Shown: positions 18,664 through 55,581 of the stretch, one piece after another | Position numbering within the stretch: the stretch's first letter is position 1 | Layout: each line of letters starts with the position of its first letter | NCBI GenBank assembly: GCA_029237775.1 | Contig: JAQZBR010000005.1 | Location: forward strand, 124,001 to 188,000 | From: Bacteroidota bacterium | GTDB taxonomy: Bacteria > Bacteroidota > Bacteroidia > 2-12-FULL-35-15 | Length of the DNA stretch: 64,000 nucleotides | Direction of reading: 5' to 3' | The notes under the pieces: generated by a model | Database searches by the model: none | Seen by the model: only the letters and a program-made list of their open reading frames with translations | Told to the model about the DNA's origin: nothing | Made by a program: the position numbers and the translations under genes

Positions 18664-18685
18664 CTTAGCGCCTTAGTGGTAAAAA
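18664..18685. repeat. Dispersed repeat family A, solo copy A1
   Basis: CTTAGCGCCTTAGTGGTAAA followed by AA; the reverse orientation of TTTTTACCACTAAGGCGC. It lies 50 bp before the MBOAT gene. Confidence 0.6.
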
Positions 18686-35462: not shown

Positions 35463-35492
35463 CTAAGTGTTCTAAGTGCCTTAGTGGTAAAA
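35463..35492. repeat. Dispersed repeat family A, copy A2
   Basis: CTAAGTGTTCTAAGTGCCTT continues into AGTGGTAAAA. It ends 11 bp before the fadA ATG and 33 bp after repeat B1. Confidence 0.65.
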
Positions 35493-35503
35493 AAAATAAT
35501 CGT

Positions 35504-38548: not shown

Positions 38549-38650
38549 TTTTACCACAAAGGCGCTAAGACGCTAAGTGAAACCCATAGCTCAAGCTATG
38601 GGTTTCTTTTTTTGCTTCTTCTTCGCGCCTTTGCGCCTTCGTGGTAAAAA
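38549..38650. repeat. Gene-less 102-bp element with inverted family A ends (A3/A3')
   Basis: Left end 38549-38579 reads TTTTACCACAAAGGCGCTAA and on to GTG. The right end 38621-38650 is its inverted form (CTTCGCGCCTTTGCGCCTTC then GTGGTAAAAA). About 27 bases pair with four mismatches. Between them lies a terminator-type hairpin (38581-38604). It fits a MITE-like unit that has become the fadE terminator and ogt promoter region. Confidence 0.7.
38581..38604. terminator. Hairpin/terminator after fadE
   Basis: AACCCATAGCT / AGCTATGGGTT with a 2-base loop, followed by TTCTTTTTTT. It is nested inside the A3/A3' inverted repeat. Confidence 0.8.
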
Positions 38651-40282: not shown

Positions 40283-40310
40283 TTTTTTACCGCTAAGGCA
40301 CCAAGGGCAC
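40283..40310. repeat. Dispersed repeat family A, copy A4
   Basis: TTTTTTACCGCTAAGGCACC then AAGGGCAC, directly after the paiB stop and 44 bp before repeat B2. Confidence 0.6.
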
Positions 40311-51914: not shown

Positions 51915-51947
51915 TTTTTACCACTAAGCACTGAGAAAGCACTAAGA
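51915..51947. repeat. Dispersed repeat family A, copy A5
   Basis: TTTTTACCACTAAGCACTGA followed by GAAAGCACTAAGA, 1 bp after the regulator stop and 34 bp before B3. Confidence 0.65.
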
Positions 51948-52061: not shown

Positions 52062-53549
52062 CTAGATGATAAAACTCCCCCTCTTAATAAAATCAACACT
52101 CTTCTCAATCTCCGTATACATGATCTTATCTACATCCACAAAAGGAACTTCATTTCTAAAGTCATCGACAAATTTTTCTATGAAAGGTGATGATTTTGCA
52201 GGCCTTCTGAACTCCAATGCCTGAGAAGCATTGAACAGCTCGATCGCAATAATTCGCTGAACATTCAGCACAACCTTATAACATTTAGTTGCCGCGTTTG
52301 CGCCCATTGAAACGTGATCTTCCTGTCCGTTCGAGCTCACTATCGAATCAACTGAAGCAGGTGAGCACAATTGTTTGTTCTGACTCACAATGCTCGCTGC
52401 TGTATACTGCGGGATCATGAATCCGGAGTTAAGTCCGGGCTGGGCAACCAGAAATGGCGGTAAACCACGCAAACCGGAGATCAGCTGATAAGTCCTTCTT
52501 TCCGAAATGTTCCCCAATTCCGCTAAAGCGATGGCTAAGAAATCGAGCGCCAATGCAAGCGGCTGACCATGGAAATTTCCTCCGGAGATAATTTCATCTT
52601 CATCCGGAAAAACGGTCGGGTTGTCGGTAACAGAATTTATCTCAGTAAGAAAAACATTACTCACGTATTCAAACGTATCCTTCGAAGCTCCATGTACTTG
52701 CGGAATACAGCGAAATGAATATGGATCCTGTACATGTTCTTTATGCCTTGTAATAAGCTCACTTCCGCTTAATAGTTTGCGCATGTTATTGGCAGTATCT
52801 ATTTGTCCTTTGTGCGGACGAATTGCATGTATATGCGGTTTGAAAGGATCGATCCTTCCATCAAATGCTTCTAAAGAAACAGCCGCAGTAATATCCGCTG
52901 CGTTGCTTAAATTCTTTGTTTGCAGTAAACACCAGATCCCATAAGCACTCATGAACTGTGTTCCGTTAAGCAAAGCTAAACCTTCCTTCGATTTCAGCTG
53001 AATAGGTTTCCAGTTCATTTCCTTTAACACCCATGAAGCATCTTGTCTCACATCGAGATGATACACTTCGCCCATTCCCAGCAATGGCAAACTTAAATGT
53101 GCAAGAGGCGCCAGATCTCCTGAGGCACCCAATGAGCCCTGCTGATAAACGATTGGTAAAATATCATTATTGAAAAAATCAACAAGCCGCTCAACAGTCT
53201 GTAACTGCACAGCGGATTTACCGTACGCAACTGCCTGAATTTTCAGCAGCAACATGATCTTTACAATTTCCTGAGGCACTTCATCACCGGTCCCGCAGGC
53301 ATGAGACATCACGAGGTTTGTCTGTAACTGCTCCAGTTCATTATCCGGAATGATCACATTACACAAAGAACCGAACCCTGTGTTGATCCCATAAATTGGG
53401 CTCTCCTGAGATTCCATTTTTTTATCGAGGTACTCGCGGCAGCGGGTAATATTATTTTTAGCTTCATCCGAAAGGACAAGCTTTTTGTTGTTTGATATGA
53501 TCTCGGAGATTGTGTTGAGATCAAGGAGCTGGGTTGTTATTTGATGCAT
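52062..53549 (-). CDS. hutH: Histidine ammonia-lyase
   Basis: 495 residues; deaminates histidine to urocanate, the first step of histidine use. The MIO cofactor forms from Ala-Ser-Gly in 'GSLGASGDLAPLAHLSL' (near 143). Other landmarks are 'YGINTGFGSLCNV' (near 53) and 'SGGNFHGQPLALALDFLAIA' (near 313). Length is typical. No other hut genes are nearby. The gene is bracketed by repeats: A5 and B3 downstream, and the inverted-repeat GxxExxY element beginning 2 bp upstream of its ATG, so its promoter must lie in that element. Confidence 0.95.
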   Translation of the reverse strand: MHQITTQLLDLNTISEIISNNKKLVLSDEAKNNITRCREYLDKKMESQESPIYGINTGFGSLCNVIIPDNELEQLQTNLVMSHACGTGDEVPQEIVKIMLLLKIQAVAYGKSAVQLQTVERLVDFFNNDILPIVYQQGSLGASGDLAPLAHLSLPLLGMGEVYHLDVRQDASWVLKEMNWKPIQLKSKEGLALLNGTQFMSAYGIWCLLQTKNLSNAADITAAVSLEAFDGRIDPFKPHIHAIRPHKGQIDTANNMRKLLSGSELITRHKEHVQDPYSFRCIPQVHGASKDTFEYVSNVFLTEINSVTDNPTVFPDEDEIISGGNFHGQPLALALDFLAIALAELGNISERRTYQLISGLRGLPPFLVAQPGLNSGFMIPQYTAASIVSQNKQLCSPASVDSIVSSNGQEDHVSMGANAATKCYKVVLNVQRIIAIELFNASQALEFRRPAKSSPFIEKFVDDFRNEVPFVDVDKIMYTEIEKSVDFIKRGSFII

Positions 53550-53551
53550 TT

Positions 53552-53597
53552 GTTTACCACTAAGGCGTTTTCACCACAAAGGCGCAAAGACGCGAAG
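53552..53597. repeat. Dispersed repeat family A, copy A6 (double unit)
   Basis: A partial unit (TTTACCACTAAGGCG) is followed directly by a second unit (TTTTCACCACAAAGGCGCAA then AGACGCGAAG). Confidence 0.65.
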
Positions 53598-53668
53598 ATT
53601 TTTCTTTTTAATATGTAGTTCAAAAAATGTTTGTTCACTTCACAATTGAAATTACGCTTTTAGAGACA

Positions 53669-54073
53669 TTAATTGCTGTATGTTTTATAATATTTGTTTA
53701 CAAACCGTTGAATTCCTTGTTTCATTAGAGGCACATTAAAATTAACAAGAAAACCGAAACGTTTATCAGTTAATTTTAAATACGAAATTGTTTGTGCAAT
53801 ATAAACGGGAGGCACTGTTTCGGCTGATTTTAATTCAAGGATGATCTCGTCTTCAACAAGTATGTCGATTTTAAATTCTTTAGATAACTGAAACGACTTA
53901 TACATTAACGGGATGACTACCTGATTTCTAGCCTTGATACCTCTTAGCTCAAATTCCTTCATCAAACATATTTCATAAACCGATTCCAGCAAGCCAGGCC
54001 CCATCTCCTTGTGAACTGCAACACAAGCGTCCACTATTTCCTTCGCCAGACATTCAAGCTTTTCTCTTTCCAT
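53669..54073 (-). CDS. GxxExxY protein (PD-(D/E)XK-like)
   Basis: 134 residues. The family motif is 'GPGLLESVYE' (G-x-x-E-x-x-Y, near residue 26), and a nuclease-like core follows in 'FKIDILVEDEIILELKSAET' (D...E-x-K, near 68-87). The C-terminal 'AQTISYLKLTDKRFGFLVNF' is also family-typical. GxxExxY proteins are common in Bacteroidota with no proven role. The D/E-x-K pattern suggests a nuclease fold, which is inference. It is the only gene between two inverted family A repeats. Confidence 0.88.
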   Translation of the reverse strand: MEREKLECLAKEIVDACVAVHKEMGPGLLESVYEICLMKEFELRGIKARNQVVIPLMYKSFQLSKEFKIDILVEDEIILELKSAETVPPVYIAQTISYLKLTDKRFGFLVNFNVPLMKQGIQRFVNKYYKTYSN

Positions 54074-54180
54074 CCATTAAGTGATTAACCCTTTATGCTT
54101 TAAACGTAATTTTGACTATTTACAATGTGTATTCTTTGTGAACAAACATCAACGAAGCAATCACTTCAATAACTTTTTTC

Positions 54181-54209
54181 TTTGCGCCTTTGCGCCTTAG
54201 TGGTAAAAA
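54181..54209. repeat. Dispersed repeat family A, copy A7 (inverted)
   Basis: TTTGCGCCTTTGCGCCTTAG then TGGTAAAAA; the inverse of A6, 13 bp past the end of hisS. Confidence 0.7.
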
Positions 54210-54222
54210 CCTTTCTCGTGAT

Positions 54223-55581
54223 TTATTTTAATTTTTGAATTATATCTTCGATTCTTATTTTCTCCTGCTCCCCGCTGCTCATATTCTTCAACGTCAGCAT
54301 ACCGCTTTGCATTTCATCACTTCCTACTATGCAAACAAAAGGGATCTTTTTATCATCAGCATATCCCATTTGTTTTTTCATTTTCGCTCCGGCATCGGGA
54401 TAGATTTCTGAATTAATTCCGGCTTTGCGGACCTGCGCCAATAGTGGTAAGCAATAATTCTGTTCGGCTTCACCGAAAGTGACAAACAAAACTTTTGTGC
54501 TTGCAGCAACCGATTCCGGGTATAAATTCATTTCATTCAACACATCGTAGATACGATCTGCACCGAAAGAGATCCCGACTCCACTCATATTTGGCAATCC
54601 GAAAATGCCTGTGAGGTCATCATATCGTCCGCCACCGCAAATACTGCTGCTGAGAGTTCCGACATTTGCTTTGACCTCGAAGATAGCACCTGTGTAATAA
54701 TTTAATCCGCGCGCAAGTGTAATATCCAGCTCGACTTCAGCAGTGTTCAGTTTTAAAGCTTCGACAGTTTTGAAAATATATTCAACCTCTTCAATTCCTT
54801 TCACACCAATCTCAGATGATGATAATAATCCTTTCAGAAAATTCACTTTTTCCAGTATTGTTCCCTTGAATTCAATAAGCGGCTGTAATTTTTGAATTGC
54901 TGCTTCACTTATCCCATTCTCCTGCAACTCCTTAATTACGCCATCAGCACCGATCTTATCAAGCTTATCAATAGCAACCGTGATCGTGATTATTTTTTCC
55001 TTCTCACCGATAACTTCCGCGATTCCTCCTAGGATCTTTCTGTTGTTGATCTTTATAACAACAGGAACTTTCAATGTTGTAAAAACATCATCGATCATCT
55101 GTGTTAATTCAACTTCGTTGATCAATGCATTACTTCCGATGACATCTGCATCACACTGATAAAATTCGCGGTAACGGCCTTTCTGCGGACGATCTGCACG
55201 CCATACGGGCTGTATTTGATAACGCTTGAAAGGGAAGGTTATTTCACTTTGGTGTTGAACAACGTAACGTGCAAAAGGGACTGTCAGATCATATTTAAGG
55301 GCTTTCTCTGAGATCTTATTTGTAAGCTGTTTTGCTTCCAGGTTCATATCAACTCCGGATTTAAAATCCCCTGAATTCAAAATCTTAAAAATCAACTTGT
55401 CTCCTTCATCCCCATACTTACCCATTAGCGTAGAAAGATTCTCCATTGCCGGAGTTTCAATAGGCAAATAACCAAAGCGTTGAAAAACCTTTTTAATAGT
55501 ATCAAAAATATAGTTCCTTCTCACCATTTCCTGTGGTGAAAAATCGCGGGTTCCTTTAGGGATTGAAGGTTTTTGTGCCAT
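54223..55581 (-). CDS. hisS: Histidyl-tRNA synthetase
   Basis: 452 residues; class II synthetase charging tRNA-His. Motif 1 is near '[20 protein letters not shown]' at the N-terminus, and motif 2 is '[20 protein letters not shown]' (near 121). The histidine-specific loop is '[15 protein letters not shown]' (near 284), and motif 3 is '[17 protein letters not shown]' (near 333). A C-terminal anticodon-binding domain is present ('[20 protein letters not shown]'). Length is slightly above the 420-430 common in other phyla. Family A repeat A7 lies just past its stop. Confidence 0.96.

Follow-up and report, generated by a model that had tools for sequence, protein, structure and literature searches.

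Inverted heptad arrays around a GxxExxY gene in a Bacteroidota genome: a probable REPtron-like unit with a predicted PD-(D/E)XK nuclease

Why a small gene of the GxxExxY family should lie between inverted copies of a dispersed repeat, and whether gene and repeats form a single mobile unit, are the questions raised by a locus in the 64,000-nucleotide stretch of Bacteroidota DNA analysed here, referred to as the window. The gene (53669-54073, minus strand) encodes a 134-residue protein assigned to the PD-(D/E)XK nuclease family, and profile searches identify it as a clear member of PF13366 (8.5e-37, 126.5 bits against a cut-off of 22) and of TIGR04256 (1.3e-38, 131.9 bits against a cut-off of 35), family names which give no biological role and for which no description of arrays was found. 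It is intergenic, being bordered on the left by the host gene hutH (52062-53549, minus strand, ATG at 53549) and on the right by the host gene hisS (54223-55581, minus strand), with all three genes on the minus strand in the order hutH / GxxExxY / hisS. Its enclosure by inverted dispersed repeats, noticed in a first-pass annotation, was confirmed: the arms at 53567-53598 and 54179-54210 are inverted with respect to each other over 32 nt and are 88% complementary. The element begins 3 bp upstream of the hutH start codon, where 2 bp had been given.

The arms are not copies of one fixed terminal sequence, as had been thought, but short arrays of a degenerate heptad, CRCNRAG, separated by spacers of approximately one to four bases. 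The left array (53568-53598, plus strand) reads inward through three heptads, CACAAAG-g-CGCAAAG-a-CGCGAAG (53575-53597), and is preceded by an extra outer array unit, TTTACCACTAAGGCG (53553-53567, plus strand), which contains the heptad CACTAAG at 53558-53564. The right array (54179-54210, minus strand) is the inverse of the left one and also comprises three heptads, CACTAAG-g-CGCAAAG-g-CGCAAAG (54180-54202). Symmetry was also claimed for the interior, and the 12-mer ATGTTTGTTCAC (53627-53638, plus strand) indeed has an exact inverse at 54138-54149; an exact match of this length was obtained in 3 of 2000 shuffles and an equal or better alignment score in 45 of 2000. Because this inner symmetry is marginal with respect to chance and none of its type was seen, by eye, in the other copies at the hutH locus, it is given no weight here.

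Copies of the arrays are dispersed through the window and the source genome. Allowing up to two mismatches, TTTTTACCACNAAGGCGC has 8 matches in the 64-kb window where 0.01 are expected, and ACCACNAAGGCGCNAAG has 84 matches in the genome, whereas the reversed control pattern has 10. A gene-less pair reported at 38549-38650 and several solo copies were found as described: the pair (L296) consists of a left array at 38555-38577 (plus strand) and a right array at 38621-38643 (minus strand) with a terminator-like hairpin in its interior, while solo arrays of two heptads are located at 18664-18685 (minus strand) and 40284-40305 (plus strand), a degenerate solo copy at 35476-35493 (minus strand), and a solo array of three heptads (CACTAAG, CACTGAG, CACTAAG) at 51922-51946 (plus strand), between a response regulator gene and hutH, beyond the hutH stop codon. 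Neighbouring copies 61-1500 bp apart in the source genome face each other in nine cases, face away in one and point in the same direction in two. A point missed by the first-pass annotation is that all seven GxxExxY genes of the source genome lie within inverted arrays whose word differs from gene to gene, and these words include CGCAGAG, CACGGAG, CACNAAG, ACGCTGAT and ACGAAT. The commonest solo word of this genome, CACTAAGGCACTAAG, is an exact match to no resident GxxExxY arm. One GxxExxY copy of the source genome (L036) is interrupted by an in-frame TGA and is apparently broken, its arrays still being present.

GxxExxY is a predicted nuclease with conserved active-site residues. The nuclease-like D...ExK pattern recognized earlier holds in 62 homologues, in which D70, E80 and K82 (E80-x-K82) and Q94 are invariant and Y98 (Q94xxxY98) is at least 90% conserved, no cysteine occurring among the conserved columns, and an AlphaFold2 model (pLDDT 93.5) exhibits a PD-(D/E)XK core. 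The nearest fold is that of the Cas4 protein SSO0001 (4ic1; Z 9.0 over 103 residues, 15% identity), and the next structural neighbours, at Z 5.5-7.8, are many nucleases, Holliday junction resolvases included. GxxExxY resembles PD-(D/E)XK enzymes of the Cas4 and lambda-exonuclease type in its fold and in the D...ExK...QxxxY pattern, yet it is minimal in size and has no conserved cysteine; as seen in this model, the shared fold alone indicates neither a function nor which nucleic acid would be cut. Searches with the window protein against the PDB sequences, with GxxExxY against PHROGs and with seven loci against Rfam returned no match, and no anti-phage defence family of PADLOC-DB was found for GxxExxY at E 0.01.

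The arrangement at the window locus recurs widely. An inverted-pair score was defined as the best local alignment between the 350 bp upstream of a gene and the reverse complement of the 350 bp downstream. In a first set of 119 loci, drawn from the source genome and its relatives, from species across many phyla and from a small number of viral contigs, 91 reached a score of at least 30, as compared to 11 of 248 control genes on the same contigs; the median score was 39 for the two flanks of one locus and 20 for cross pairs, i.e., upstream and downstream flanks of different loci, a control free of the weakness that control ORFs could have non-intergenic flanks. Forty further loci, taken from the as yet unfetched part of the match list, yielded 33 at this score. 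Across all loci the enrichment of inverted repeats around GxxExxY genes, which had been anticipated, amounts to 126 of 162 (78%) against 7 of 138 size-matched control ORFs (~5%), a rate that may be lower in distant members of the family since the sample is biased to near ones, the 80 species loci being those nearest to the window protein and the loci of relatives favouring the Pfam consensus. The score cut-off, like the two class labels used below (CRCNRAG and GAT), was set after the first arms had been inspected, and the contrast between GxxExxY and control genes changes little between cut-offs of 28 and 40. Positive loci are distributed over 13 named phyla and SAR324, methanogenic archaea among them. 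The geometry of the unit is directly observable in these loci: the arms lie ~45 bp from the GxxExxY domain, and double heptads point only inward in 69 upstream and 79 downstream flanks and only outward in 8 and 3, respectively.

When inverted pairs 400-700 bp apart were considered at the listed positions of seven genomes, all five were found to contain GxxExxY (hand count), and a forward test on six additional pairs of this spacing in other phyla identified the gene in five, or in three of the four new pairs when two on contigs already used are subtracted. GxxExxY was absent from all of the wider (819-1313 bp) and narrower inverted pairs that were fetched, one wider pair enclosing a host gene named ArsC-like from reading its sequence. 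Among related genomes, 78 of 99 carry at least one GxxExxY gene, with a maximum of 19 in a single genome. The gene occurs in 7 of 72,556 plasmids, always at less than 60% identity, in only a few copies on viral contigs, and in none of the phage records.

The class of array was found to follow the protein subfamily. Proteins of the VYNxLGYGFLEKVYENA type are associated with GAT-type arrays (ACGCAGAT...TATGAT), and most GPGLLESVY proteins with CRCNRAG arrays, a split which was spotted in the first arms, 40 further loci being fetched afterwards. Placed on the protein tree, repeat class changes 3 times, as against 27.8 times with shuffled labels (0 of 500 shuffles); the full tree of 164 proteins requires 4 changes against 27.7, and a set with one locus per flank context (51 loci) requires 3 against 9.3, the latter test being conservative since too many loci were merged, 71 of them into one group, when flanks were clustered by single linkage. 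Furthermore, among loci with unrelated flanks the median arm similarity is 14, 14, 16, 19, 23, 36 and 47 for protein identities increasing from the 20s to the 80s %, and two loci from different families (L134 and L144) encode proteins of 87% identity with no shared neighbours detected. The class match and the way in which arm similarity tracks protein identity indicate that the gene and its arms travel or evolve in concert. Co-inheritance of a linked unit gives part of this correlation, and recognition of the arrays by the protein does not follow from the correlation alone.

Further information comes from the differences between the two arms of a locus. At CRCNRAG loci the arms differ in 34% of columns at N and in 19% outside the heptads, as compared to 0-1% at C1, C3, A6 and G7, where the fixed positions are somewhat favoured by the placement of heptads on one arm, N being measured in the same heptads. 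Transversions, which break pairing, constitute 244 of the 463 differences. Since the fixed positions are kept, N is variable and transversions are many, it is the word that is conserved rather than the stem, and this points to a protein that would read the sequence. Pairing of the arms was considered as the main constraint and rejected, as the word positions are kept and over half of the differences break pairing.

Dispersed arrays also accompany the gene across genomes. In 63 genomes outside the genus, representing ~54 families, at least five exact copies of CCRCNRAGRCRCNRAG are present in 12 of 42 that possess GxxExxY and in none of 21 that do not, the largest count in the latter being 3, near the control rate. 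This association has a Fisher p of 0.0055 at a cut-off chosen after the counts had been seen and, free of any threshold, a Mann-Whitney p of 0.0013 and a Spearman coefficient of 0.62, exclusion of the genus being the only phylogenetic control. Twelve carrier genomes of other phyla hold up to 356 copies of CCRCNRAGRCRCNRAG, with none in one archaeon, and several carriers are without dispersed arrays of the one class that was searched. In one genome (G008) the gene-less arrays share both heptads and spacer lengths with the resident GxxExxY element (L297).

Empty sites, the presence of which in related genomes had been raised as a point to check, were found at two orthologous positions, and turnover is directly visible at both. 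The hutH and hisS genes adjoin in most congeners; a GxxExxY gene separates them in four (the window, L161, L172 and L176), the site is empty with a spacer of ~5 bp in L182-L184, and other congeners possess gene-less pairs (L160, L162, L164 and L167) or a solo array (L181). Similarly, a GxxExxY gene is located between korA and korB in three congeners (L229, L233 and L248), these genes overlap or are separated by 3 bp in L250, L253 and L254, and ACGAAT remnants occur in L230, L234 and others. The hisS-linked proteins of five congeners, i.e., the four above and L221 of genome G033, form one clade (95 SH-aLRT), and for this reason an old insertion with losses is preferred to repeated insertion at hutH-hisS, which was rejected: the window copy is an old insertion, retained and lost by descent. 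Among the protein pairs listed, those of at least 88% identity share flanking genes, and pairs without shared neighbours start at 87%. Together with the hisS clade, this indicates that losses of the unit are frequent, that over a period of roughly the age of the genus it has mostly been static, and that its movements take place over longer times. Neither a transposition event nor a target duplication or an exact junction was observed, the hutH-hisS spacers of the congeners not being alignable to the junction. The hutH-hisS spacer also accumulates different repeat types: that of L165 (genome G025) contains ~8 tandem copies of a ~60-nt unit with a GAT-type array inside, and L169 and L170 carry unrelated CGTCATTGC palindromes exactly where other congeners have arrays.

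The explanation that we consider somewhat probable is that GxxExxY and its inverted heptad arrays make up one heritable, slowly mobile, REPtron-like unit, the nuclease of which recognises, cuts and spreads the arrays of its own subfamily. Array binding, cutting and protein-driven spread are steps that we infer. In this scheme the heptad arrays, probably as DNA in single-stranded or hairpin form, would be recognised and cut by the nuclease of the matching subfamily; through the repair or copying that follows, new arrays may arise between other genes, some solo and some as gene-less inverted pairs, and the whole unit might occasionally be carried to a new locus or genome. REPtrons consist of a TnpA-REP/RAYT gene with REP and inverted REP sequences (PMC8266576, PMC3733652). 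The likeness includes a small nuclease gene bordered by inverse repeats, the intergenic dispersal of the same repeats, often as inverted pairs with variable linkers, the coexistence of several repeat-specific types in one genome, and the tendency of close GxxExxY copies to stay in place. In contrast, the GxxExxY enzyme is of the PD-(D/E)XK type whereas that of REPtrons is of the HUH (Y1) type, its repeats are spaced degenerate CRCNRAG-like heptads and not a palindrome tagged GTAG or CGTC, and one genome may hold as many as 19 GxxExxY genes while a given tnpAREP is mostly single-copy. The architecture is that of a REPtron-like system, for which both the enzyme and the design of the repeats are new. 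Heptamer arrays of TAACTGA are likewise dispersed and intergenic in distant phyla, including Bacteroidetes and Cyanobacteria (PMC4679880), but these are direct repeats of one exact heptamer, with no linked nuclease reported and no inverted pairs.

Of the other explanations the one that survives best, although we consider it unlikely, regards the arrays as control sites and not as transposition ends: GxxExxY would bind or cut them, as DNA or as transcript, thereby regulating itself and the genes near dispersed copies, and the pairs would be hairpins at gene ends. It is in keeping with this that gene-less pairs sit between genes, that four of them, all in the source genome, bracket hairpins resembling intrinsic terminators (shuffled rate 0.001), and that conservation is stronger for the word than for the pairing. 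A stable regulon is harder to reconcile with a copy number of 0 to 162 among congeners, with empty sites and with unrelated palindromes at one spot, which correspond rather to the turnover of selfish repeats.

Another reading that is also unlikely makes GxxExxY a passenger or helper, with a third factor, common to PF05635 elements, moving any small gene that lies in short-unit inverted arrays. PF05635 is the family of the S23/IVP protein, the small ORF of the selfish intervening sequences of 23S rRNA (PMC4990558), and is unrelated to GxxExxY, the window element moreover being intergenic and not within rRNA. Free-standing PF05635 genes, which encode four-helix-bundle proteins (L038-L043 and L259-L288), nevertheless lie in inverted arrays of other words in 27 of 31 cases (score of at least 30), those of the source genome among them, with units of 7-8 nt such as TAGTTNT, GAGATNT, GTATCAG and AAAGTTT; as their architecture is the same, a shared third factor could be the mover. 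A common mover, however, leaves unexplained that the words are specific to the protein subfamily, and the dispersed copies follow the presence of GxxExxY, a comparison that was made for GxxExxY only.

The classical interpretation put forward in the first-pass annotation, that of an autonomous transposon with terminal inverted repeats, GxxExxY as its transposase and MITE-like derivatives, appears very improbable. A recurrent unit with inverted repeats does exist, as do gene-less pairs, solo copies and empty sites, but the derivatives are not MITEs in the strict sense. From 17 gene-less pairs that were parsed, 14 had interiors of at least 25 bp, and in the resulting 91 comparisons the median score was 18 and the maximum 29, where shuffled sequences gave 16 and 24, with none reaching 30; the pairs have only their arrays in common, and their identity as MITEs was rejected as no interior similarity is shared between copies. 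They resemble BIMEs, in which a variable linker joins two inversely oriented repeats (PMC8266576), more than internally deleted transposons. Furthermore, arms vary within one element and between orthologous copies where conserved, shared terminal repeats would be expected, near copies share their flanks, and no target duplication was seen. Site-bound homing or selfish retention, in which the nuclease cuts alleles devoid of the unit and so restores it at the same locus, is highly unlikely too, for although the same loci are occupied in scattered congeners with empty relatives and the hisS-linked copies are one clade, vertical descent with loss would produce this pattern as well, the sites are intergenic, and hundreds of dispersed arrays are left unaccounted for.

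With the REPtron-like unit as the preferred reading, a broader proposal can be made, tentatively and with rather less confidence: a class of prokaryotic selfish elements, found in many phyla, each encoding a minimal PD-(D/E)XK nuclease, or a sister four-helix-bundle protein, within inverted arrays of spaced heptads that the protein specifically recognises and through which it seeds up to hundreds of gene-less arrays, with protein and word having co-diversified. GxxExxY genes are common orphans, for which a subfamily-specific DNA word provides a testable function; the link also explains a conspicuous group of dispersed repeats and supplies a natural series in which each nuclease comes with a candidate recognition word, and the PF05635 parallel could point to a more general principle, perhaps extending to the rRNA intervening sequences. 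No paper on the link between GxxExxY and arrays was found, which is weak evidence of absence given that preprints and most subscription journals lay outside the search, and no relevant paper containing the repeat strings was found.

A number of individual loci depart from the simple arrangement. In L107 and L034 the GxxExxY open frame extends back into the array, and annotated starts may include array-encoded residues, e.g., TTEARRT. In L114, L058, L063 and L121 each arm is itself an inverted array pair, such that the gene is located between two gene-less pairs. Finally, the viral contigs L127 and L128 carry divergent GxxExxY genes with long inverted flanks of another kind, composed in L128 of TTTAAAATT units.
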